From a virus, in IMG/VR virus record IMGVR_UViG_3300006919_000127, positions 1 to 40,843 of that record: a stretch of DNA of 40,843 nt. One strand, 5' to 3'. A program made the position numbers and the translations under genes. How positions within the stretch are numbered: position 1 is the stretch's first letter; each line of letters opens with the position of its first letter. The notes under the pieces are model-generated. The model was given only the letters and a program-made list of their open reading frames with translations. It had not been told where the DNA came from and ran no database searches. Of this stretch, positions 8,932 through 40,821 are shown one piece after another.

Positions 8932-9371
8932 ACATAGACGCTTTTAAAGAAGAGATTATAGCAGACGAAGGTGTAAAGTATGAAATTTATCTCGATCATC
9001 TTGGTCTGCCTACTTTTGGCATTGGTCACCTTATTACTGAGGCTGATCCTGAACATGGACAACCTATCGGAACGCCAGTCTCGGAAAGCCGAGTGAATAC
9101 ATGTTTCTACAACGACGTTGAGCTGGTTCTTAACGATTGCATGATACTATATCCTGACTTCGAAGATCTACCTGAAGAAGCCCAGAGGGTCATAGCGAAT
9201 ATGATGTTTAACATGGGTAGGCCACGTCTAAGCAAATTCAAAAAGATGAAAGAAGCTGTAGATGCTAGAGATTGGAATGCTGCTGGATATGAGATGGTTG
9301 ATAGTCGTTGGTATAAGCAAGTTCCTAATAGAGCAGAAAGATTGGTGAATAGAATGCATGCTCTTGCGTAG
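8928..9371 (+). CDS. endolysin, T4-type lysozyme (GH24)
   Basis: 147 residues; ATGA overlap with the holin. The N-terminus reads IADEGVKYEIYLDHLGLPTF followed by GIGH, which gives the Glu-Asp-Thr catalytic set of T4 lysozymes (E in ADEG, D in YLDHLG, T before FGIGH). RVIANMMFNMGRPRLSKFKK and a terminal WYKQVPNRAERL are also family-typical. It cleaves the glycan strands of peptidoglycan. No signal peptide is seen, so export depends on the holin. Confidence 0.9.
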   Translation: MNIDAFKEEIIADEGVKYEIYLDHLGLPTFGIGHLITEADPEHGQPIGTPVSESRVNTCFYNDVELVLNDCMILYPDFEDLPEEAQRVIANMMFNMGRPRLSKFKKMKEAVDARDWNAAGYEMVDSRWYKQVPNRAERLVNRMHALA

Positions 9372-9421
9372 TGTCGTGTCTCCTATTACAGACCCGAAAA
9401 CTATGTAAAGAGGAAAGACAA

Positions 9422-11197
9422 ATGCATAACACAGAATATCTCGGACCTCAAAGCTCGTTGTCGCAAGAGATCGACATGATGAAGTATCGTCAAGAAAACG
9501 AAAGCTTTGATGAAAAGATTAAACGTATTGCAAGGGCTCTCTGTGATGGTCAAGAACATCGTTATAATCTGGAAGATATTCTAGGTAATATGCGTTTTCT
9601 GCCAGCAGGACGAGTACAAGCAGCCGTTGGATCAAACAGAATTACTACTGCCTACAACTGTTTTGTAAGTGGTGATATTGAAGACAGTATGAATAGCATT
9701 ATGGAGAAGGCCAGTGAAGCAGCTGAAACTATGCGTAGAGGAGGCGGTATCGGTTATGACTTCTCTAAGATCCGCCCACGTGGTGACAGGATTAAATCAC
9801 TTGATAGCCAGTCGTCGGGGCCGGTTAGTTTTATGGGCATATTTGATGCTGTATGCCAAACCATCGCGAGTTCGGGACATCGGCGAGGTGCACAGATGGG
9901 CGTTCTTAGGGTTGACCATCCGGACATTGAGGAGTTCGTTGCTGCTAAACGTAATTCTGACAAGCTTACTGGTTTTAACGTTAGTGTAGGTATCACAGAC
10001 GAATTTATGGAGGCCGTTCTCAATGATGGGGATAGTTCTTTTACACTGCGCTTCAATGGAGTCGAACACAAGACCATTGATGCGAAAGCATTGTGGGACG
10101 AAATCATGTCGTCGACTTGGGATTGGGCAGAACCTGGCGTGCTGTTCATTGACCGCATTGCTGAATACAATAACCTATTTTATTGCGAAGACATCAGCGC
10201 CACAAACCCGTGTGGTGAGCAGCCTTTGCCTGCTTATGGCGCTTGCCTGCTTGGTTCCTTTAATCTAACAAAGTATGTCACTATGCCGATCACGCTTCCA
10301 GATACTGACGCTGAAGTAAGGCACGCCCACTTTGATTTTAATCAATTCAAGAAGGACATTCAGGAAGTCGTGAGGGCTATGGATAATGTCATTGATAGAA
10401 CTATCTATCCACTCAAACAGCAATCAGACGAAGCAAAGAACAAGCGCCGTATGGGACTTGGCGTCACTGGTTTGGCTAATGCCGGAGAAATGCTCGGTAT
10501 GCCGTATGCCTCAGACGAGTTCCTTGTGTGGGCAGAAAAGGTATTCGCCTGCTTGCGTGACAATTGCTACAGAGCATCAGCTCGACTTGCAAAAGAAAAG
10601 GGCGCATTCCCGCTCTATCGTGAAGACTACTTGAAGTCAAACTTTATTAGAGGTCTACCGGCCTCAGTTAAGAAGGAGATTCGTGAACATGGCATTCGTA
10701 ACTCACATCTCACTTCAATCGCTCCTACAGGTACTATTAGCCTAGTTGCTGATAACATTAGTGGAGGAATTGAGCCGGTATTTAGTCATTACTATGACCG
10801 TACCATTCAAACCTTTGAGGGCCCGAAGGTTGAAAGAGTGGAGGATTATGCTTATGCTCATGGTGTAGAAGGTAAAACAGCAAATGATATTTCAGTACAG
10901 GATCATTTAGCAGTTTTGCTTTTAGCTCAAAACTACATTGATTCTGCGTGCTCAAAAACGTGTAATGTAGGAGATGACGTCTCATATGATGAGTTCAAAC
11001 AGGTCTATGTTGATGCCTGGAAAGGCGGGGCGAAGGGATGCACAACGTTCCGACTTAGTGGTAAAAGATTTGGGGTACTCCAAACCGTGGAAGAAGAAGC
11101 GGAGGTACCTAGCGAGACTACGGAAGTGGCTGAAGAAGAGGGAAAGGTTGAGGCTTGCTTCATCGACCCGCTCACTGGCCAAAAAGAATGCGCATAG
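9422..11197 (+). CDS. nrdJ: adenosylcobalamin-dependent ribonucleotide reductase (class II)
   Basis: 591 residues from the ATG at 9422 (AGAGGAAAG just upstream; an in-frame extension back to 9371 is not conserved-looking). The active-site loop is N262-P-C264-G-E266, equivalent to N437/C439/E441 of E. coli NrdA. C80 and C275 match the substrate-level redox pair, PTGTIS (435-440) binds phosphate, and C579 and C590 are a C-terminal thiol pair. NPCGEQPLPAYGACLLGSFN is typical of B12-dependent enzymes, and no small-subunit gene (NrdB) is nearby. It reduces ribonucleotides to deoxyribonucleotides and needs host B12. Unusually it sits in the late structural block, between lysozyme and nozzle genes. 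Confidence 0.92.
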   Translation: MHNTEYLGPQSSLSQEIDMMKYRQENESFDEKIKRIARALCDGQEHRYNLEDILGNMRFLPAGRVQAAVGSNRITTAYNCFVSGDIEDSMNSIMEKASEAAETMRRGGGIGYDFSKIRPRGDRIKSLDSQSSGPVSFMGIFDAVCQTIASSGHRRGAQMGVLRVDHPDIEEFVAAKRNSDKLTGFNVSVGITDEFMEAVLNDGDSSFTLRFNGVEHKTIDAKALWDEIMSSTWDWAEPGVLFIDRIAEYNNLFYCEDISATNPCGEQPLPAYGACLLGSFNLTKYVTMPITLPDTDAEVRHAHFDFNQFKKDIQEVVRAMDNVIDRTIYPLKQQSDEAKNKRRMGLGVTGLANAGEMLGMPYASDEFLVWAEKVFACLRDNCYRASARLAKEKGAFPLYREDYLKSNFIRGLPASVKKEIREHGIRNSHLTSIAPTGTISLVADNISGGIEPVFSHYYDRTIQTFEGPKVERVEDYAYAHGVEGKTANDISVQDHLAVLLLAQNYIDSACSKTCNVGDDVSYDEFKQVYVDAWKGGAKGCTTFRLSGKRFGVLQTVEEEAEVPSETTEVAEEEGKVEACFIDPLTGQKECA

Positions 11198-30719: not shown

Positions 30720-33083
30720 CTATGCAAAGAAGTAATCGCTGTCTGCGATACTCTTAACTTCTAAGTTTCCTAATTGGTAATCATAGTTAAACCCAGACGG
30801 ATCGTCTAACAGGTTTTCTGCAATGATCTCATAAAAGTCTTCATGATCGTACATTGCTATGAATACTTCCTTTGTTAGAAACACCAGTTTTTCTACGTCA
30901 CAGGCGTGAGTAGAGAAGGAGTCGTGTATTGCTGCAAACTCGCCGTCCCAGTTAGCTATTACAATAGCCATATGAGACGCGTCCATACTATGAATGTAGT
31001 TGGGACTGATACCAGAAGCAAAGCCACCAGGACTAGGTATTTTCTTACCATACACAAGTCTTGGCTCGTTACCAACATGCTGAATGCGCATGTCTGAGAT
31101 CCATGACTTCCACTTAATGTCTTCCATTACGTAGTTTTCGTACGTTACTGGAAATCCAGAAGGTGTAGTCCATCGAATATTTTCTTGCTTCAGCTCGGTT
31201 ACAATGTAACTTGCTAGAGTTTGCAAATAGCTCATGGTTTCTAAAGGACCAGGACAGACTTCATCGATTGCCTTAATTAGATTATAAGACAAGTCATTAC
31301 AGTCCGACATAGTAATATCGTACTTGCTATGATAGCCTTCTGCGTAGCAGTCAGCATACATGTTAAGCGCAATAGCCAAGTGGCCAGCACTGTAAGCTCT
31401 CGTCATAGATCCACGCTTAGAAATACCTTTACGGATATGTTTCATTGGCATGTCTCTTTGTTCGAACCATTCCGGCATACGTGATCGTAAAGCCTTTGCA
31501 GTTTGAACGTAGAAGTCTTGTGGTATTTCAATAGGCACTAGTCCTACTAACTCTCCTGCCTTTTCGTCCTTAGAAATCGCAGCTAGGTGTTGCCAACCGT
31601 TATTACTACCATCAATAGGGATTGGTAGGTTGGTTAGATACACACTTCCGTTTGACGAGCTGCACCAGAATGCATGCCATTCTTTACAACAAGCAAGAAA
31701 TACAACAGGTTTTTCTGCCTTTTCGTGTATTGTCTTATTTTCCCAAGTATTTGTAATAAAGTCTTGGTTGTTGAGAACCCATCTTACTCGGTCTTCAATA
31801 GTCATCTTATCTACTGAAATGTCGTGCAACCCTTGCCTTTCGAGGTGTCCTCTATAGTCTGCCTCGAAATAGTCTGGTATCTCATCAATAGAATAAGTTT
31901 GGTTGTATGAAGACGCAGTGTGTATTGCTAAATAAAAAAGACCTTTCTCATCAAGTATCCTAGACTTGTGGAACTTAAGCATACCACGTTCAATATCCTT
32001 ACCTTGGTAATTGATATAGGATTCACGATAGTATAGTCGTCCTCTGTAGTCCGCGTCTATATACTGATAGAAAGGCCTTCCTTCTAAAGCAGAAGCCTTC
32101 TGTACCGTCATGTTGTATGCATCAAACTTACTTCTGTTTTTCAGCAATACAAGCTTAGCGTTCCAGTTAGTAGCTGCCTCATCGTACTTACGTTGAAGAG
32201 TTTCCAATGGCTTCTTATTTGGCTTATTACGAAGCTTGTTAGTCATGCGTCGTAGTTCGCCATAGTATTTCTTTTCCAAAGACTTATTACCTAGATCAGG
32301 TCTGAATATGTCTCCGTTCCAGTACAGGTTTTTACCTTCCAGTTCTTTATTATTTCCAAAGATACAGTAACGGTAGTTCTTACCTGTTTCGTCTGCTACT
32401 TTTAGTTTCTCAGTTACGAACTTATCTTTATTGTTCCTAACCACGTCAAGAATATCAGAGTCAATTTCCCATGCAGTTGATTGCAGCTTATCAATTGCCT
32501 TTACAAACGGCTCTTCCAAATATTCTTTGAACTCTTTGTCTTTGTCAAATCCCCAATGCTTAATCACTGGATATCCGTTATCTTGAAACAGCTGCGTTAT
32601 AGGCTTGATAGGTTCAAACGTAGTGTTTTGAATTAAGTCACTTACAACTACATCTGGCAATGTGCCAACTTCAAGCCAACGCTTGGCGGTTTCAATCATG
32701 TATGGTGCGCGACTGTATGGGCGTTTACCTACTGGATTATTTTCCCATGCAATTTGCGCTTCTGTTGGTGCTCGATATATGCTAATGTATCCGCACTCGT
32801 AGAAACCTTCTAGAACTAGGTCGCCAAGCGTTACGTCTGCTCGGAAACCTAGCTCCAGTCCTTTCCTTAAGAATACGTTCTTACCGATAGCAACAGATGC
32901 TGCTGTGAGTTTACATGTCGCTGACTCAGATACTGAAGTCTTTCTGAAGTGATACTGTAAAATGGTAAGTGCGTCATACACTAACTGCTTGATCGAGATC
33001 TCGTGTTCCTTGACAAGCTTCACTGCCCATCTTTGCGGAGTGTTCTCCACTTTCTGCTCCAGATATTCCATTATCTCTTGCAT
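30720..33083 (-). CDS. T7-like single-subunit RNA polymerase
   Basis: 787 residues from the ATG at 33083, with GAGGAG 5-6 bases upstream; an in-frame start 57 bases further up is less likely. T7 RNAP is 883. Motifs: DYRGR (R349), motif A PIDGSNNGWQHLAA (D491), motif B SKRGSMTRAYSAG (K556, Y564), TPSGFPVTYENY, GISPNYIHSMDASHM, motif C AIHDSFSTHA (H720, D721), and a C-terminal SDYFFA like the T7 FAFA foot. It transcribes phage genes from its own promoters. T7 has Gly after the motif B Tyr; here it is Ser. The first 110 bases overlap the GIY-YIG gene. Near the end of the leftward operon. Confidence 0.95.
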   Translation of the reverse strand: MQEIMEYLEQKVENTPQRWAVKLVKEHEISIKQLVYDALTILQYHFRKTSVSESATCKLTAASVAIGKNVFLRKGLELGFRADVTLGDLVLEGFYECGYISIYRAPTEAQIAWENNPVGKRPYSRAPYMIETAKRWLEVGTLPDVVVSDLIQNTTFEPIKPITQLFQDNGYPVIKHWGFDKDKEFKEYLEEPFVKAIDKLQSTAWEIDSDILDVVRNNKDKFVTEKLKVADETGKNYRYCIFGNNKELEGKNLYWNGDIFRPDLGNKSLEKKYYGELRRMTNKLRNKPNKKPLETLQRKYDEAATNWNAKLVLLKNRSKFDAYNMTVQKASALEGRPFYQYIDADYRGRLYYRESYINYQGKDIERGMLKFHKSRILDEKGLFYLAIHTASSYNQTYSIDEIPDYFEADYRGHLERQGLHDISVDKMTIEDRVRWVLNNQDFITNTWENKTIHEKAEKPVVFLACCKEWHAFWCSSSNGSVYLTNLPIPIDGSNNGWQHLAAISKDEKAGELVGLVPIEIPQDFYVQTAKALRSRMPEWFEQRDMPMKHIRKGISKRGSMTRAYSAGHLAIALNMYADCYAEGYHSKYDITMSDCNDLSYNLIKAIDEVCPGPLETMSYLQTLASYIVTELKQENIRWTTPSGFPVTYENYVMEDIKWKSWISDMRIQHVGNEPRLVYGKKIPSPGGFASGISPNYIHSMDASHMAIVIANWDGEFAAIHDSFSTHACDVEKLVFLTKEVFIAMYDHEDFYEIIAENLLDDPSGFNYDYQLGNLEVKSIADSDYFFA

Positions 33084-33444
33084 GTTTTCTCCTCGTTCTG
33101 CGGTACGGATTATGTACAACGTTAAATAGATTACATCCATACCTTAAGCAGCATTTAATTTCATGTGTCTCAACAATTAGAGCTTCTTGCTCAGTCATGT
33201 TGCCACCCTTGATTTCTACTATCTCCTGTATTTCAAACTTTTCTAGCTTTTCTAGTAGCCAGACATGGTGGTCATATCCTCTATGTGTCATCTGAAAAGC
33301 TCGATGCAGTGTACCTTTACCTACGTATACCACATCAAGCGTTTCAGGATCTTTGTGAACATACACACAGTACATATCTTCAGGATACTTAACAACCTCA
33401 TCTGTACCGTCACGTAGTTCAATATTTCTCAACAGATACTCCAT
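32974..33444 (-). CDS. GIY-YIG nuclease-like protein (possible homing endonuclease)
   Basis: 156 residues. CVYVHKDPETLDVVYVGKG followed by a conserved-looking R (HRAFQ) is a GIY-YIG variant (YVH...YVGKG), then helices HHVWLLEKLEKFEIQEI and EQEALIVETHEIKC with likely catalytic Glu. The start overlaps the dCMP deaminase by 26 bases. The last ~36 residues lie in the first 110 bases of the RNA polymerase gene in another frame and are of low complexity. A free-standing nuclease wedged between essential genes is typical of a homing endonuclease, but it could serve repair or DNA degradation. Confidence 0.75.
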   Translation of the reverse strand: MEYLLRNIELRDGTDEVVKYPEDMYCVYVHKDPETLDVVYVGKGTLHRAFQMTHRGYDHHVWLLEKLEKFEIQEIVEIKGGNMTEQEALIVETHEIKCCLRYGCNLFNVVHNPYRRTRRKHARDNGISGAESGEHSAKMGSEACQGTRDLDQAVSV

Positions 33445-33838
33445 TCTTCTCTAAGAGTAGAAGAGCCTCATCTTGATAGCATTCACAATAGACAACACGC
33501 TCGATACCAGACTGAAGAATAAGCTTAGTACATTCCGTACATGGCGAAAGAGTCGAGTATAGAGTGGCGCCTTCAGACGACGAGGTTGATGAAGCCAGTT
33601 TACATATCGCGTTTGCTTCTGCATGTATAACTTCCCACTTAGTTGTACCGTCTCTATGACGGGTATTGTTATCCATACCATGTGGAGTACCGTTCCAGCC
33701 GTAGCTAAGGATATTAGTACCCTTAGCTATGACGGCTCCAACTTGGTGTTTAGTATCATGAGACTGCAAAGCAATTAAGTGAGCAATTCCCATGTACAGA
33801 TCGTCTTGTTTGATCTGCTTATTCTTATAGTATCCCAA
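33419..33838 (-). CDS. dCMP deaminase (TTG start)
   Basis: 139 residues. Zinc and catalytic motifs HAEANAI and PCTECTKLI, with YMGIAHLIALQS and WNGTPHGMDN, are diagnostic. The start is chosen at TTG 33838, with AAGGAAGG 7 bases upstream and a 14-base overlap with the helicase stop; this gives a normal family N-terminus. The in-frame ATG at 33943 lies deep inside the helicase gene, and ATG 33793 would cut into the first helix. It converts dCMP to dUMP, feeding dTTP synthesis. Confidence 0.88.
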   Translation of the reverse strand: MGYYKNKQIKQDDLYMGIAHLIALQSHDTKHQVGAVIAKGTNILSYGWNGTPHGMDNNTRHRDGTTKWEVIHAEANAICKLASSTSSSEGATLYSTLSPCTECTKLILQSGIERVVYCECYQDEALLLLEKNGVSVEKY

Positions 33839-35420
33839 ATCCGTTTCCTTCCTTGAGTCTACCTGTTTCTCGATTGTAAAGGGCAGTTCCAGCTGGTCCA
33901 GTGAGGCCTGTAAATCGAGACTTGAGTACTGTGAAGTTGACACGATTACGGTCCTCCTCTTTCTCTGCAGTTAGGTTACGTGCAAAGGCAATAATGTCAA
34001 AGCTAATTTGCTTGATCGAACCAGAACCTTTGACATCGTCAATAGATGCCATGTTACCTTCTTCGAAAGCTTTACCACCTGACTTACGCAAGTGGCTAAT
34101 AAGTCCAAGCCAGACATTATGCTTCTTTACAATCTTAAGTAGATCACTCATTACTTTGTCGATAGCCGCGTTGCCAGCCAGACCTTCAGTACCTTCAGAT
34201 ACCGCGATAGTAATGTGGTCAAGAACGAGATACTTTGCGCCCATAAGGCACATGTATTCGATCTTATCGATGAGACTGCTATCTTCCACTGAGCCTTGAT
34301 GATCGAGTAGAATAAGTCGTTCGTCACTGAATACCTGCTCAAATCCTGATCTAAGCTCAGATTCTGTGAGGTCTGCAGCGTCCACGAGGTTTCTATTGAT
34401 AGCCATTCCGATGAATTTCTCGGCAGTATCTCCCACACTTTCTTCGAGAGATATGAGTCCGATCTTATCGTCAGTCTTGTCAAGTAGATTAAGAACAATC
34501 TCTTTAATGACAGTACTTTTACCACTGCCAGTACCGCTAGTAAATAGGGTAATTTCACCAAGTCTTACTCCTTTCAGTTTGTCGTTAAGTCCGTTCAAAC
34601 ATTCAGGATAAGGCACGCTTTCAACATGACGTCGTTCTTGAAACTGCTGCCACACAGCTTCACCAGTAATGATACCAGCTGGGCTGTAAGCTGATGCTGA
34701 CCAAATAGCTGAGTTAACGGCTTGTGGTCCTTCACTTTGCAGTAGTTCATTAGCGTCTTTGAACTTATCAGACTCAACTACTTTAATTTTATCAAAGCCG
34801 ATAATCTTAGCGGCTTGTTGTACACATTTCTGACCGGCCTCATCGTTATCAAACCATAGTACTACGGTCTCAAACTGTCTGATCCAACCACGATTATCTA
34901 GAACAACGCTTAGTTGGCTAGCAGATGGTACAGATACTACAGGCCAGATCTTTTTGTTGACAGACATGGATGCCTGTGCTACGCTGAGTGCGTCGATCTC
35001 GCCTTCTGTAATAACCAACATCTTGCCGCCACTATTGAACTCACGTTGCCCGAATAGTTTTGTTGGTTTGCCCAATACTCGAAAGTCTTTAGGCAAAATC
35101 CTTACTTTGTAACAGTCGTCTCCATAAGGATAGAAGTGAGCAGGTTTATCGTTATATTGGTGAGTCTTTACACCAAAGAACGTAACTACTTCCTTCGAAA
35201 TATTCCTACTAGCAAGCTCAAGACTAGGATAGTTATGAATATCGGAGACGAGTACTGGTCCATAAGAACCTGTATCGGTAGCGGGTGCATCTAACATATA
35301 TTCCTTCTTTCTTTTCTTACATGCAAAACAATACGTATGTCCATCAGCTGGGTCAATCATTACTCCATCAGAGCTACCACAGTCAGGACATGGATGTCTT
35401 TTAGTTCCATTCACGGTCAT
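33825..35420 (-). CDS. T7 gp4-like primase-helicase
   Basis: 531 residues; T7 gp4 is 566. N-terminal zinc ribbon C11-x2-C14 and C31-x2-C34; TOPRIM primase residues E139 in ITEGEID and D191/D193 in WFDNDEAG; RecA-like helicase with Walker A SGTGSGKST (K301), Walker B YLVLDHITI (D401), and an Arg-finger candidate R502 in KSRFTG. It unwinds the fork and makes primers for the DNA polymerase. The upstream SD is weak (AAGAAAG); the start overlaps a small gene by 20 bases. Confidence 0.95.
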   Translation of the reverse strand: MTVNGTKRHPCPDCGSSDGVMIDPADGHTYCFACKKRKKEYMLDAPATDTGSYGPVLVSDIHNYPSLELASRNISKEVVTFFGVKTHQYNDKPAHFYPYGDDCYKVRILPKDFRVLGKPTKLFGQREFNSGGKMLVITEGEIDALSVAQASMSVNKKIWPVVSVPSASQLSVVLDNRGWIRQFETVVLWFDNDEAGQKCVQQAAKIIGFDKIKVVESDKFKDANELLQSEGPQAVNSAIWSASAYSPAGIITGEAVWQQFQERRHVESVPYPECLNGLNDKLKGVRLGEITLFTSGTGSGKSTVIKEIVLNLLDKTDDKIGLISLEESVGDTAEKFIGMAINRNLVDAADLTESELRSGFEQVFSDERLILLDHQGSVEDSSLIDKIEYMCLMGAKYLVLDHITIAVSEGTEGLAGNAAIDKVMSDLLKIVKKHNVWLGLISHLRKSGGKAFEEGNMASIDDVKGSGSIKQISFDIIAFARNLTAEKEEDRNRVNFTVLKSRFTGLTGPAGTALYNRETGRLKEGNGFGIL

Positions 35421-36724: not shown

Positions 36725-37076
36725 ACTTTCTCCATATTACTTCAACACCCCACTCTGGCTTAGGCCTTAGATCAGGATTATAAAGCCATTCAGCAGGGCA
36801 GGTTAGTGGATCATAATTAGGATTACTATATGCAAGCACGTCTTTTACCTCATACTTATCATATTGAGATCTTACAATATCAAACCACTCTTTAGTTTCG
36901 TAGCCTTCTTGAATAGGGTGGCATGTATAGTTCCAACCATCTCCATGAAGATTCATTGCAGTTCTTTTGTATTCCATTGTTACTTCTCTATCTTGAAGTT
37001 CGAAGCCTGCCAGAGTGTGTATTTCCTCTAGCAGACTTGTTGGTACTTCATCAATCTTATCAAGATCAATGTACAT
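36708..37076 (-). CDS. hypothetical protein
   Basis: 122 residues; GGAG 8 bases before ATG, overlapping the DNA polymerase stop by 11 bases. Acidic N-terminus (DLDKIDEVPTSLLEEIHTLA), then YTCHPIQEGYETKEWFD, LAYSNPNYDPLTCPAEWLYN and RPKPEWGVEVIWRKYG. Trp/Tyr-rich with two Cys. No recognised domain. Its place between polymerase and exonuclease suggests a replication role (inference). Confidence 0.65.
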   Translation of the reverse strand: MYIDLDKIDEVPTSLLEEIHTLAGFELQDREVTMEYKRTAMNLHGDGWNYTCHPIQEGYETKEWFDIVRSQYDKYEVKDVLAYSNPNYDPLTCPAEWLYNPDLRPKPEWGVEVIWRKYGQEN

Positions 37077-38925
37077 CAGCGTAGCTCCTTCCTACTACAT
37101 AGTCGCCACCATCCATACACTCTACGCCAAACCACTTAGGCGCTTCATGAAAAGAGTCTTTCAGAATTTCACCAACTCTGTTAGCGTCTTTCTCACTAGC
37201 AATCCAAGCCTGTTCGTCATGGTAAAATATAGCTGGGTAAGCGTCAAGATTTTCCTCTTTAATCTTTTGCATGGCGTAACTAACAGCTGCTTTACAAGTA
37301 ACACCTTCAGCAGCTTGCAAGAGATAATTAAGGACCTGATAGTCAGACCTAGCATAAACCTTGCGGCCATCCAAACCAGGTATGCATCCGTATCGGTTGA
37401 ATACTGACTTAAGCTTTTGTACCAGTGTTTCAAACCCTGGCAGATTAGCCATAAATTTATGTCTTGCTTCCTTTCCTTTCGCTGCATTGCTTACTCCGTA
37501 AAGAGTTTGGCCAAGCTTCGCATCACCTGCCCCAAACAAGATAGCGTAAAGAAAAGATTTAGCAAGGCTCCGACTGCAATCCAAAACGTCAGCATTGCGG
37601 CTGTGTTGATCACCGTTGATGACAAGGTCGGTGTAATTACTATCTCCCACATAATGACATAGACCGCGGAGCTGATTACCAGCAGAGTCCGCGCCAACAA
37701 CTCGATAGCCTGTCTCAGAAATAAATAGTTCACGGAGCATCCTTCCATAGGAAGCATCCACCGCCGGTAGGTTGACGATAACTTCATGACGACAGCGAAA
37801 ACTTGGAGTACCAACAGTCCACATCCTACCATGAAGTCGATAAGAACCTGTTCCATCTTTCTCAATCCTTTCTAGCCATGAGTTGATGGTTGCTGCTCGA
37901 TTCTTGATAGTATAATAACGATCTACCAACTTACCAATGCGACCGAGCTTAGCCAATGAAGTTGATGTTAGCTTTGGACCTGTTCTGATCCACTGACCGT
38001 TATCTCCTTTCTTTACGTTCCAGTCGTCAGGCTGCCAGCCAATCGTGTACAGCCAGTCCTTGACCTTGTCCATGTTTGATAGAGTAACAGGTTCTATTGT
38101 AGAACGCTGGAACTCTTCACCTGGAGCCACTGGAGGGTTGTCAGATATGGCCTCTTCGGCCAGTACCGTACGACCTAGCTTTTCAGATAAGATACGAGTC
38201 GTAGTTGCAGTGTATAGACCTTTCTTCGTATACTTTGCAGTCTTCGGTGTCTTATCGATAAACACTTCAGTCGTGCCAAGACGGGGTTCAATAATAGACT
38301 CAATGCGATTCATATGCTTACGCATAAGATTTAGATTGTAATGAGCCTTATCAGTGTCAAACAGCCAGCCTTTCTTACGAACTTCACGTTCGAAGAATGC
38401 GATGTCATGCTCGACAAGCAAACCTTTCTTGATAAGTGGATTAATCTTTACAGCTTCGTTTAGTTCAGCTAGCAAGACTTCATACACTCTTAAGTTTAGT
38501 TGTACGTCTTGAGTACAGTACTCCATCATTTGTGGTGAGTACTCTTTCCAACCGGTCTCTTTGAAAGACGAGTTGTCTTGTTTAGCGTAGCCAAGGTATT
38601 CACCCCAGCCTGCAAGACCATGTTTATGAGGTCTTTGGTAGTTCAGTACTTGAGACATAACCCAAGTATCAATCACCCTAACGTTATCATTAGGCTTCCA
38701 ACCATATAGCTTTTCCAACGCCATTAGATCAAATCCAATAATGTTGTGGCCAACAAGTGCGGCAGCTGTATTCATAAAGTCTAGACCAGACTTAATTGTT
38801 GGAAACCCTGGCTGATCAGCAAATCTGTACAGCTTTTTAGTTACGGCGTCTTGACATACAAGCATGTGACAAACCGTCATCTCATCAAGAAGACCGTCGG
38901 TTTCAATATCAAATACGAGTTGCAT
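37066..38925 (-). CDS. DNA polymerase, family A, T7-like, with proofreading domain
   Basis: 619 residues from ATG 38925 (AAAGGA at good spacing; a TTG two codons upstream is too close). Exonuclease: D6-x-E8, GHNIIGFDL, Y136..D140. Polymerase: motif A GADSAGNQLR (D413, Gln418 where Glu is usual), motif B R452-K456-Y460-F464 followed by G (Phe where T7 has Tyr530), motif C YHDE (H569, D570). Tyr460 at the 526/762 site predicts poor discrimination against dideoxynucleotides, as in T7. The TGR motif appears as TPSFRCRH. A ~58-residue Lys-rich segment (about 219-277) lies where T7 has its thioredoxin-binding loop. Confidence 0.95.
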   Translation of the reverse strand: MQLVFDIETDGLLDEMTVCHMLVCQDAVTKKLYRFADQPGFPTIKSGLDFMNTAAALVGHNIIGFDLMALEKLYGWKPNDNVRVIDTWVMSQVLNYQRPHKHGLAGWGEYLGYAKQDNSSFKETGWKEYSPQMMEYCTQDVQLNLRVYEVLLAELNEAVKINPLIKKGLLVEHDIAFFEREVRKKGWLFDTDKAHYNLNLMRKHMNRIESIIEPRLGTTEVFIDKTPKTAKYTKKGLYTATTTRILSEKLGRTVLAEEAISDNPPVAPGEEFQRSTIEPVTLSNMDKVKDWLYTIGWQPDDWNVKKGDNGQWIRTGPKLTSTSLAKLGRIGKLVDRYYTIKNRAATINSWLERIEKDGTGSYRLHGRMWTVGTPSFRCRHEVIVNLPAVDASYGRMLRELFISETGYRVVGADSAGNQLRGLCHYVGDSNYTDLVINGDQHSRNADVLDCSRSLAKSFLYAILFGAGDAKLGQTLYGVSNAAKGKEARHKFMANLPGFETLVQKLKSVFNRYGCIPGLDGRKVYARSDYQVLNYLLQAAEGVTCKAAVSYAMQKIKEENLDAYPAIFYHDEQAWIASEKDANRVGEILKDSFHEAPKWFGVECMDGGDYVVGRSYADVH

Positions 38926-38973
38926 GTGCAATCCTTTCTGTCCTTAAGACGGTTAATTCATGGTTAGCGAAGC

Positions 38974-39123
38974 TTATGCTTCGCCTTCCATAACAAGTTT
39001 ATTACTACAAATCGGACAGACGTCAGTATCGTCGTCAATTTGCATGACTTGAACATCACGTCCACAGTCAGGACAAGTAGCTACTTCAAACTCTTGTCCT
39101 AAAAAATCTGTAGTCTCACTCAT
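38974..39123 (-). CDS. small zinc-ribbon protein
   Basis: 49 residues from the ATG at 39123 (GGAG 8 bases upstream; an in-frame start at 39159 lies within the MazG gene). Two knuckles, CPDC (17-20) and CPIC (36-39), make a four-Cys zinc ribbon with an acidic loop between (QIDDDTD). Might bind nucleic acid or a polymerase. Sits between MazG and DNA polymerase. Confidence 0.72.
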   Translation of the reverse strand: MSETTDFLGQEFEVATCPDCGRDVQVMQIDDDTDVCPICSNKLVMEGEA

Positions 39124-39133
39124 TGCTTTTCTC

Positions 39134-39553
39134 CTATACAAAGTAAGATGTATCTCCATGATTATCTTCGTGGTTAGGTCCTTCCCAACCTTCTGGCTTG
39201 ATCAAGTCCGGTAAGCCGAACGTATTAGGCCGGCTAGCCTTGACTCCGGGTTCTTTGGCCATATTAGCCTTATGAACTTGATCCCATGCTTTGTCTGCAT
39301 CAACTCCCAGTATATCAAGCGTACCAATGGCAATAACACATAGGTCAATAAGACCGTCGATAACTTCTTCTGGATCTTGTTCACTAAAAGCTTGACTTGT
39401 TTCATTCAACTCTTCCTCTAGAAAATTAATTCGAAAAGCAAGAAACTGTTTTAGCGTATGAGCGTCTCCATCAAAAATCTTATGGCCTACCCAATCGCTT
39501 ACTCCAAATTTATCATGCATTTCGTTAATGTCTTTTACCCATTTACTAGCCAA
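39134..39553 (-). CDS. MazG-like nucleotide pyrophosphohydrolase (TTG start)
   Basis: 139 residues; starts at TTG 39553 with AGGAG 9 bases upstream, overlapping the neighbour by 19 bases. FRINFLEEELNET and EEVIDGLIDLCVIAIGTLDI give the EExxE and ExxxD metal-binding helices of the all-alpha NTP pyrophosphatases, and AWDQVHKANMAK is a typical third helix. It hydrolyses (d)NTPs to monophosphates; in phages the proposed roles are nucleotide-pool cleansing or altering host stress nucleotides. C-terminal 30 residues are phage-specific. Confidence 0.85.
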   Translation of the reverse strand: MASKWVKDINEMHDKFGVSDWVGHKIFDGDAHTLKQFLAFRINFLEEELNETSQAFSEQDPEEVIDGLIDLCVIAIGTLDILGVDADKAWDQVHKANMAKEPGVKASRPNTFGLPDLIKPEGWEGPNHEDNHGDTSYFV

Positions 39554-40029
39554 TGTGGTTCACTCCTATTCTTGTATGTAGCAAATCTTATTTTATCTCG
39601 TTTGTAGAAGCCACGATAAGCGTTTACAGGCCAGAACTCGTCTGTCTTTAAATCATCGTGACCACTAAAACATTGTGGATGCTGCGTCAATGGACCTTCT
39701 GGTATCAAGACGTTAGCGTGTTTTAGCAGAGTACGGTGCTTACTTGCACCATGTATTTTCTTATATCTATAAGTGTACTCATTTAGCATAGCGTCGTACA
39801 GTTTCCAAGCCCAACGGTAATTAGATCTTGTTTCACCAGCCCACTTAGTACATGGATGGTTCTTATGTACAGCACGATACAGTCCTCGCCTTTCAGCAAA
39901 GACGGGAGCGTAAAGATGCAAGACGGTACAAAGCATTTGAGCCTCTTCCAACGGCATCTTTACGATATGTTTGTCGCATAGTTGCTGAGCGATCGCGTCA
40001 GGTTCTATGTCTACGATAAACCTATTCAT
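39535..40029 (-). CDS. conserved phage protein, CDKHIVKMPLE family
   Basis: 164 residues. FIVDIEPDAIAQQLCDKHIV then KMPLEEAQMLCTVLH is a signature I recognise from many marine phage genomes; HPCTKWAGETRSNYRWAWKL and PQCFSGHDDLKT follow. Early His/Lys/Glu in a helix vaguely recalls T4 endonuclease V (QHL...E), and some annotation pipelines may link them, but the resemblance is too weak to call a pyrimidine-dimer glycosylase. Rich in His, Cys and Trp; could bind metal. Confidence 0.7.
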   Translation of the reverse strand: MNRFIVDIEPDAIAQQLCDKHIVKMPLEEAQMLCTVLHLYAPVFAERRGLYRAVHKNHPCTKWAGETRSNYRWAWKLYDAMLNEYTYRYKKIHGASKHRTLLKHANVLIPEGPLTQHPQCFSGHDDLKTDEFWPVNAYRGFYKRDKIRFATYKNRSEPHWLVNG

Positions 40030-40138
40030 TCTTTCCCTTTCTAAAGCGGTGCTTGAAGAAAACTATTAGGTTTAGGAACGTATTGATGGTTACCATAAGC
40101 AGCAACCACCAATGCGTCCATGAGTCTACTAATTCCAT
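40022..40138 (-). CDS. small single-span membrane protein
   Basis: 38 residues, read directly from the bases. The ATG at 40138 overlaps the stop of the hydroxymethylase gene (TAATG), and its own stop overlaps the next start by 8 bases. It reads MELVDSWTHWWLLLMVTINT, then FLNLIVFFKHRFRKGKNE: one membrane span and a positive tail, so Nout-Cin by charge. Unknown function; the coupling on both sides supports that it is real. Confidence 0.65.
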   Translation of the reverse strand: MELVDSWTHWWLLLMVTINTFLNLIVFFKHRFRKGKNE

Positions 40139-40821
40139 TACAAGTTTTCTTTACACCACTTTTGTACATGATGAAAGTGTCGTGGATAAATATGAAGACT
40201 TTGAGCTTGCCAAAACATGTCGCTGTTGCTTTCAATGTCAAGATCGATTGCAAGGCGAGATGCCACAACTTGAGCCCAGTAGTAATCATTCATATAGCCA
40301 AAGACAACGTCGTTAGAACGCATTTGAACCACGGTCTGAAGCACTCCATTACGAATGTAATAGGTAACTGCGTTAGTGCAAATGAAATCGTTCTTACCGT
40401 CTTCACGATAGTCGTTATGCATAGACGGTCGAGTGTAAATCATCGTAGCACGACGGCTATTCGGATTTGTTTTAAGTTCACGCAAGACGTTATCGTATTG
40501 GCTACCATTTTCCTTTGAGTACACGCACCAACCGTAGTTAGAATTAATCTCACCACGAGTATTTGCTGCATGTTCTTTCCAAATTACTGGCACTTTACCA
40601 TAAAGCTCGTTCAAAGGATTAACGTTACATTTCTGTGTATCGTACCAGTCACGCTCGGCAACCATGTAGTCTACATTAGGTTCGCCAAAGATGGACTCCT
40701 CAGTGGTTACGAACGACGCACCAAGGAGCTCCAACATTCCTTCTGGGTGTTGGTCCTGCACGTTATGCATGTACATAAGACCAAAAGCTTTACGAATATC
40801 TGCTACATTAAGCGTAGTCAT
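40138..40821 (-). CDS. dCMP hydroxymethylase-like enzyme (T4 gp42 type, thymidylate synthase superfamily)
   Basis: 227 residues. It aligns by eye with T4 gp42 along its length: ELLGASFV, RGEINSNYGWCVYS, NPNSRRATMIYTRPSM, DFICTNAVTYYIRNG, MRSNDVVFGYMNDY. C148 is the catalytic Cys and D179 replaces the Asn that gives dUMP selectivity in thymidylate synthases (N177 in E. coli), with the same residue numbers as in T4. Asp selects dCMP. So the product is probably hydroxymethyl-dCMP (or methyl-dCMP) rather than dTMP. T4 gp42 is 246 residues; the C-terminal ~20 are absent here. First complete gene of the leftward operon; AAAGGA before the ATG. Confidence 0.85.
   Translation of the reverse strand: MTTLNVADIRKAFGLMYMHNVQDQHPEGMLELLGASFVTTEESIFGEPNVDYMVAERDWYDTQKCNVNPLNELYGKVPVIWKEHAANTRGEINSNYGWCVYSKENGSQYDNVLRELKTNPNSRRATMIYTRPSMHNDYREDGKNDFICTNAVTYYIRNGVLQTVVQMRSNDVVFGYMNDYYWAQVVASRLAIDLDIESNSDMFWQAQSLHIYPRHFHHVQKWCKENL

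Follow-up and report, generated by a model that had tools for sequence, protein, structure and literature searches.

A 40,843-nucleotide stretch of viral DNA (IMG/VR record IMGVR_UViG_3300006919_000127), hereafter the window, encodes a predicted dCMP hydroxymethylase (HMase) of the T4 gp42 type, and its sequence and that of its relatives make it highly probable that the virion DNA holds a derivative of hydroxymethylcytosine (hmC). We also consider likely the whole pathway, in which hydroxymethyl-dCMP (hm-dCMP) made by the HMase would replace dCMP in phage DNA and then receive a sugar from a TET-associated glycosyltransferase (TAGT). T4-type phages are the textbook example of base replacement by hmC, and the T4 enzyme set consists of the dCTPase gp56, the HMase gp42, the kinase gp1, and glucosyltransferases. 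In the pathway proposed here, a MazG-like protein would hydrolyze dCTP and dUTP, thereby keeping plain cytosine from the phage DNA and supplying dCMP. The HMase would move a hydroxymethyl group from methylene-THF onto dCMP, with Cys148 attacking C6, Asp179 recognizing cytosine, and Asp145 activating water. A kinase of the phage or the host would raise hm-dCMP to the triphosphate, the phage DNA polymerase would incorporate hm-dCTP in place of dCTP, and the TAGT, encoded upstream, would put a sugar on hmC in DNA, such that the modified cytosine would shield C-containing sites from restriction enzymes. The sequence supports the identity of the HMase, the TAGT, and the MazG family, as well as a reduced avoidance of C-rich palindromes; we infer the MazG substrate, the kinase step, the sugar, and the virion base as parts of the pathway.

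The HMase open reading frame (227 amino acids) occupies positions 40138 to 40821 on the minus strand and starts with ATG; only 22 bases on its upstream side separate it from the last position of the window. As the initial annotation had expected of the usual label, Pfam alone names the product Thymidylat_synt (51.7 bits). The top match in a PDB search was T4 dCMP hydroxymethylase (1b49; E = 1.9e-57, 198 bits), and thymidylate synthases ranked next at E = 2.5e-10 or worse. The protein is 47% identical to gp42 of the T4 record, and it was aligned with that gp42, E. coli ThyA, gp35 of Pelagibacter phage Kolga, and five relatives. Ser94, Tyr96, Arg123, Arg124, Asp145, Cys148, Arg168, Ser169, Asp171, and Asp179 carry identical numbers in the HMase and gp42, and in E. 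coli ThyA the place of Asp145 is taken by Leu143 and that of Asp179 by Asn177. The alignment thus bears out the earlier claims that gp42 is followed almost motif by motif, with C148 and D179 at the same numbers, and that Asp stands where thymidylate synthases have Asn. The catalytic Cys148 and the phosphate-binding Arg pair of the thymidylate synthase (TS) family are present (R123, R124, and R168), Asp occupies the pyrimidine-specificity site (T4 residue 179) in the window HMase and the clade members examined, and the protein has no TS-type C-terminal tail, only 13 residues running from Arg214 to its end. The hydroxymethylase signature, as given in part of PMC6400193, which describes the ternary complex of the T4 enzyme, comprises Asp145 three residues before Cys148, Ser94, Tyr96, Asp179 for cytosine, and the absence of a C-terminal tail. 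Every feature of a dCMP hydroxymethylase that can be checked on sequence was found in the HMase, and the signature is also kept by five relatives in the alignment (L004, L005, L007, L010, and L013).

Readings of the protein as a plain thymidylate synthase, a dUMP hydroxymethylase, or a dCMP methyltransferase each fail at residues 145 and 179, which are Asp and Asp rather than the Leu and Asn of a synthase, and at the tail. A CMP hydroxymethylase reading is disfavored by Ser169 and Arg123/Arg124, which lie at sites assumed, without alignment, to correspond to those of MilA A176S and K133R; in the section of PMC6400193 that treats MilA, the enzyme prefers dCMP only with these two substitutions. 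An enzyme that supplies dTTP or hmdUTP synthesis, either a divergent thymidylate synthase or a dUMP hydroxymethylase, would agree with the Pfam label, with a phage dCMP deaminase that would yield dUMP, and with the finding of no other thymidylate synthase or ThyX: in the sister genomes G003 and G006 the HMase is the single TS-family gene, and ThyX was found in neither. Such an enzyme is nevertheless extremely improbable given Asp179 instead of Asn, the presence of Asp145, the missing tail, and an E value that places gp42 closer than any thymidylate synthase by about 47 orders of magnitude. We conclude that the product of 40138 to 40821 is almost certainly a dCMP hydroxymethylase, with its activity predicted from these residues.

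One further alternative is that the HMase makes 5-methyl-dCMP in the manner of synthases with an Asn-to-Asp change, and that the DNA holds 5-methylcytosine (5mC) rather than hmC. Work cited in a passage of PMC8670742 indicates that Asn-to-Asp at TS position 177 alone makes a synthase act on dCMP to give 5-methyl-dCMP. Moreover, the HMase slot in Kolga, L127, L130, and L145 holds a TS-like protein that looks methylase type: its Asn177 site is Asp, its residue 145 is Leu, and its residue 149 is His. The window protein, however, has Asp145, Ser94, Thr149, and no tail, which is the hydroxymethylase pattern, whereas in the methylase-type group residue 145 is Leu, residue 94 is Ile, Val, or Leu, and residue 149 is His; the Kolga protein retains the tail. 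The two types also fall in separate clades. In a tree of 90 rows, 19 sequences of the window's phage group formed one clade (SH-aLRT 100), two T-even sequences lay outside it, and eight synthase-like Asp sequences formed a clade of their own; because the window HMase sits in its own clade apart from the T-even sequences, it was not copied recently from T4. A census of 86 distinct TS-family sequences likewise gave the HMase signature in 80 (one of which ends before the last two signature sites), a synthase-like pattern with Asp at the Asn177 site in 5, and E. coli ThyA as the remaining one. Finally, 5-methyl-dCMP would leave the TAGT without a hydroxyl substrate, and we regard this alternative as very improbable for the window.

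Predicted dCMP methyltransferases, synthase-like apart from an Asp in place of Asn177, that lie beside MazG and are labeled thymidylate synthase or "pyrimidine hmase" were observed at L015:11205-11990 (Kolga gp35, MT375529) and in L107 to L110, L127, L130, and L145. From these residues, 5mC is predicted for Pelagibacter phage Kolga, Edwardsiella phage KF-1, Vibrio phage VPMS1, and Pseudoalteromonas phage PH1. Since MazG accompanies hydroxymethylase and methylase types alike, its presence fits a role in the removal of plain dCTP.

A scan of IMG/VR returned 13 relatives with the single HMase protein as the query and at least 581 with an alignment as the query, the best 80 of which were retained; the scan patterns select for residues around 94 to 96 and 145 to 149 but not for 179. 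Among GenBank phages, 1256 records matched the HMase query, 191 of them from Microbacterium phages; in a sample of 60 of the 1256 taken at even steps, T-even-type phages and ~41-kb Microbacterium phages predominated. The initial annotation had stated that hydroxymethylcytosine is known mainly from T-even phages, but HMase-type enzymes reach further, as the IMG/VR relatives and a 40-kb Microbacterium phage with both an HMase and a TAGT indicate. At suitably covered HMase loci outside the window's clade, dCMP deaminase was present in 55 of 60 and MazG in 39 of 42.

Three contigs assigned to the same phage extend beyond the window's end: L003 (100% over 1179 bases), L027 (99.77% over 16.3 kb), and L014 (123 bases at 100%, and 99.5% over 3.6 kb to L003). 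Upstream of the HMase, these contigs encode a 333-amino-acid TAGT (L003 2370-3371), which scores 43.7 bits with PF20691 (cut-off, 27.5); a single short open reading frame separates the two genes. Further upstream come a gene whose product resembles DUF1599, at a score below cut-off, and then one for a DUF3310 protein (L003 1050-1304; 68.9 bits). TAGT was present in 4 of the 14 records searched. A DDD motif at residues 105 to 107 is invariant in 12 of 12 aligned TAGTs and other motifs are kept too, with the window phage's TAGT having a longer C terminus than the others. A confident AlphaFold model (mean pLDDT, 83.2) matched the T6-type beta-glucosyl-HMC-alpha-glucosyltransferase predicted for Klebsiella phage PKO111 (E = 8e-21; TM score of 0.83 by target length). 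Its PDB matches, which were weaker, included the GT-A enzymes TarP and N-acetylglucosaminyltransferase I. We conclude that the modeled TAGT has a GT-A fold with a metal-binding DxD motif and is predicted to transfer a sugar.

In T6-type phages, TAGT is described in portions of two papers as adding a second glucose (PMC13216743 and PMC13390438) and in one of them as a second-step enzyme, the substrate of which is already glucosylated hmC (PMC13216743). The window phage's TAGT resembles the T6-type enzymes in its PF20691 score above cut-off, its GT-A fold, its DDD motif, and its HMase neighbor; it differs in being only about 28 to 30% identical to them and in standing alone, such that it would need hmC itself as a substrate. 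Neither alpha-glucosyltransferase (alpha-GT) nor beta-glucosyltransferase (beta-GT) was found in the window, G001 to G004, G006, G013, or G014 by searches that matched the T4 control. The TAGT is thus the only recognized hmC-type glycosyltransferase in the seemingly complete genome G003, which carries a TAGT but no alpha-GT or beta-GT.

An alternative in which hm-dCMP is incorporated and hmC stays bare, with the TAGT idle or acting elsewhere, for example, on glycans, gains weight from the 8 of 13 clade loci covering DUF1599 to MazG that have an HMase without a TAGT, and from the substrate of the T6-type enzyme, given which a lone TAGT is not known to use bare hmC. The TAGT nonetheless adjoins the HMase here and in T-even phages, lies near it in the Microbacterium phage Mandalorian, and is strongly conserved, and we consider bare hmC unlikely. 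GenBank-phage relatives of the TAGT also adjoin a dCMP hydroxymethylase in many of the matches listed, one neighborhood having been examined in full. Comparison of the window phage with L113, its nearest sister, gave dN/dS values of 0.10 (TAGT), 0.11 (polymerase), 0.18 (the Pyr_excise-like protein described below), and 0.34 (MazG), while in the HMase synonymous sites were saturated (pN of 0.19 and pS of 0.75). These genes are maintained as functional, and the TAGT is under purifying selection. We conclude that decoration of virion cytosine with a sugar by the TAGT is probable.

Gene content upstream of the polymerase suggests both a coherent module and exchangeable slots. A DNA polymerase scan gave 79 new loci, 37 of which extended 4 kb or more past the polymerase on its upstream side and were used for the count: DUF1599, the TS-like gene, and MazG were all present in 3 (L113, L130, and L139), and none was present in the other 34. 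Of 27 whole records searched for PF00303, only G034 (the same as L139) contained it, in a gene with residues of the HMase type. Judged by these counts, the module of DUF1599, TS-like gene, and MazG moves as a unit. The dCMP deaminase was rejected as a strict member, as it also occurs in relatives without the TS-like gene or the module. The window's clade comprises 22 loci, 13 of which cover DUF1599 to MazG. TAGT was found in five of the 13, representing four phage types (L002, L004, L029=L030, and L038; the L038 protein scores 22.4 bits, under the Pfam cut-off, but is 68% identical to the window phage's TAGT). Another five (L005, L007, L034, L036, and L037) carry a 279-amino-acid SAM methyltransferase (PF13489, 41.7 bits) in the HMase operon, as at L005:7251-8090 and L007:11463-12302, and three that are close to one another (L011 to L013) carry neither gene. 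TAGT and the methyltransferase never occurred in the same one of the 13 loci. That the SAM methyltransferase methylates hmC is a guess. Taken as a whole, it is possible, and we propose only tentatively, that a family of marine podoviruses with T7-type polymerases runs a compact cytosine-replacement pathway in which the lone TAGT glycosylates hmC directly, without prior action of alpha-GT or beta-GT, and that the operon slot is modular. In this view, some sister phages have the methyltransferase in place of TAGT, which might give an hitherto undescribed methylated hmC, others have neither gene, and in a related phage of Pelagibacter a dCMP methylase occupies the HMase slot and would yield 5mC.

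A search beyond the window for partner genes, as the initial annotation had suggested, turned up a glycosyltransferase, the TAGT upstream on the same-phage contigs, and a dCTPase candidate, a MazG-like protein downstream, but no T4-type dNMP kinase. The MazG-like protein (39134 to 39553, minus strand, TTG start) belongs to the MazG/PRA-PH nucleotide pyrophosphatases (PF01503, 39.4 bits), and its best PDB match is DR2231 (E = 3.8e-7), which we take to be a dUTP pyrophosphatase. The protein is a natural candidate for the dCTPase, but because its nearest solved relative is presumably a dUTP pyrophosphatase, dCTPase activity is a guess. The T4-type dNMP kinase gp1 (PF21448) was found in none of five records (the window, G002, G003, G006, and G013), and the T4 control was positive. 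In a one-to-one comparison, the DUF3310 protein was 39% identical over 54 residues (E = 1e-6) to T7 gp1.7, a DUF3310 protein annotated as a nucleotide kinase, and it is the one kinase-like candidate, offered as no more than a lead. A dCMP deaminase is encoded at 33419 to 33943 on the minus strand (PF00383, 86.9 bits; phrog_174, E = 8e-50), with its true start probably some 20 to 30 codons inside the annotated frame, and a ribonucleotide reductase large subunit that may contribute to nucleotide supply is encoded at 9371 to 11197 on the plus strand (PF02867, 377 bits).

Phages exposed to restriction avoid palindromes. Palindromic hexamers were therefore counted and compared with expectation from an order-4 Markov null for each genome, with C-rich palindromes defined as those with four or more G/C. 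In seven module-bearing genomes or contigs (the window, G003, G006, G004, G014, Kolga, which was included on account of its methylase-type gene, and G034), C-rich palindromes occurred at 0.68 to 0.99 of expectation (median, 0.82), whereas in seven relatives without the module they occurred at 0.38 to 0.63 (median, 0.59), such that the ranges did not overlap (exact p = 6e-4). G025, G027, and G028 were left out, as their sequence upstream of the polymerase is absent or too short to type them for the module, and with their inclusion, making 10 genomes without the module, p was 4e-4. AT-only palindromes did not differ between the two sets (p = 0.71), nor did palindromes with two G/C (p = 0.32). 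For comparison, C-rich palindromes reached 0.88 of expectation in T4, which has modified cytosine, and 0.21 in T7, which does not, and the level in the window is near that of T4 and far from that of T7. In 15 other HMase contigs, hand-picked from 65 among the longest loci rather than taking all of that length, the value was 0.74 to 1.13, with L078 being low in all classes. The weaker avoidance of C-rich palindromes is the trace expected of cytosine protection and supports it without amounting to proof, as a post hoc comparison of non-independent taxa (five of the seven module-bearing genomes belong to one clade) from unidentified hosts with their own restriction systems.

The palindrome counts also bear on the alternative that hm-dCMP is incorporated only partly, or serves nucleotide-pool control, and that virions hold mostly canonical dC. 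This alternative would accord with the failure to find a T4-type dNMP kinase in the five records and with a pyrophosphatase for which dCTP is only a candidate substrate. Against it are the near-T4 level of C-rich palindromes in the window and the tracking of the TS-like gene by MazG and DUF1599, and we judge it improbable relative to replacement of dCMP by hm-dCMP.

The initial annotation had placed the window in a small T7-like podovirus. The "T7-like" part agrees with a single-subunit RNA polymerase (30720 to 33140, minus strand; PF00940, 194.5 bits) and a family-A DNA polymerase (37066 to 38931, minus strand; PF00476) that would be expected to incorporate the modified dCTP, but sister genomes make a small T7 clone unlikely. 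G003 is 58,114 bases long, with its first 55 bases recurring exactly at its end, and G006 is 55,997 bases long, with an end repeat of about 98 bases; both look complete despite their IMG/VR class of linear. Their replication genes are about 60 to 80% identical to those of the window and many structural genes about 33 to 80%, and G003 carries the same cassette (TAGT, 70%; HMase, 60% identity). G003 combines an SU10/P22-type portal (L019:6152-8314) with a T7-type RNA polymerase, an observation of mixed morphogenesis and replication modules. Given the size of G003 and its portal type, the window probably represents part of a 55- to 60-kb genome.

Compared with T4, the window phage is alike in having dCMP deaminase and glycosyltransferase genes, the latter adjoining the HMase, and equal-numbered signature residues. 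Unlike T4, it has a T7-type RNA polymerase and a family-A DNA polymerase; a MazG-type pyrophosphatase is the candidate where T4 has gp56; and searches of clade records found no T4-type dNMP kinase, alpha-GT, or beta-GT, the TAGT standing in for the two glucosyltransferases. Microbacterium phage Mandalorian (Elerivirus, MZ005670) likewise combines an HMase-signature gene, a TAGT, and MazG in a 40-kb genome; it differs in its actinobacterial host, an added annotated thymidylate kinase, and an HMase only 32.5% identical to the window's. Its gene run (L106, 30514 to 39119) was deposited under the names "thymidylate synthase," "glycosyltransferase" (TAGT, 43.2 bits), and "thymidylate kinase," plus MazG. 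Pelagibacter phage Kolga EXVC016S has DUF1599, a TS-like gene, and MazG (gp34 to gp36) upstream of a 37%-identical DNA polymerase, but its TS-like protein has TS features with Asn177 changed to Asp, predicting 5-methyl-dCMP, and no TAGT is present. MetaGPA contigs with modified cytosine, in the account given in part of PMC8670742, show co-occurrence of TS-family Asp177 with PF01503 and PF00383; their second-step enzyme, unlike that of the window phage, is a carbamoyltransferase, and the terms "glycosyltransferase" and "podovir-" are absent from the main text. As a separate observation, L111 (Acinetobacter phage MD-2021a, CAKLQA020000002, 17911 to 26420) has an HMase-signature gene near a NodU-type carbamoyltransferase and a deaminase, which matches the carbamoyl-hmC arrangement in that portion of PMC8670742.

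Already known, then, are the T-even hmC pathway and the set of HMase, TAGT, and MazG in deposited Microbacterium phages under plain names, one of which was examined. New are the genome setting, the lone TAGT, the three-way swap of the second-step gene, and the dCMP-methylase swap in the HMase slot, and among open-licence PMC papers no report was found of an HMase in podoviruses, pelagiphages, marine or T7-like phages, or the Microbacterium set; PMC8228385, PMC9004378, PMC12753301, PMC7029224, and PMC5241400 concern other subjects. A short, nearly complete-looking version of the pathway in marine podoviruses with T7-type polymerases suggests that few genes may suffice and that the hmC module spreads between unrelated phages. 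The window phage also offers a concrete test case for a question posed in 2026 about the "solitary TAGT," in the part of PMC13216743 that counts 288 of 753 phage genomes with TAGT homologues but without alpha-GT or beta-GT. Viruses with modified cytosine may be lost or miscounted by methods that need unmodified C and may escape many restriction systems, and cultured relatives allow a direct test, with 5mC predicted for Kolga and glycosyl-hmC for the Microbacterium phages.

Downstream of the HMase and on one strand follow genes for a Pyr_excise-like protein, the MazG-like protein, a zinc-ribbon-like protein, and the DNA polymerase and, further on, for the dCMP deaminase and the RNA polymerase. 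The zinc-ribbon-like protein (38974 to 39159, minus strand; 61 amino acids) had only subthreshold zinc-ribbon matches. A conserved 156-amino-acid protein (32974 to 33444, minus strand), encoded between the dCMP deaminase and RNA polymerase genes, with a GIY-YIG-like motif discerned by eye, and thus a possible nuclease, was considered as a possible analogue of T4 endonuclease II (DenA) that would cut C-containing host DNA. It had no family or PDB match at cut-off, and its AlphaFold model was poor, with a pLDDT of 38.8. Its homologue occurred in 1 of 21 relatives with both polymerases, L113, which is inside the HMase clade; because it is missing from the module-bearing L130 and L139, the gene does not track modification in general. 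The Pyr_excise-like protein (39535 to 40029, minus strand; 164 amino acids) matched PF03013 weakly (26.1 bits) and phrog_624, "DNA binding protein." Within the clade, it was seen only in the cassette of the window phage and its nearest sister contigs (L029/L030/L113), and distant relatives of it lie upstream of the HMase in other phages (L046, L047, L049, L054, L063, L073, L074, and L087).
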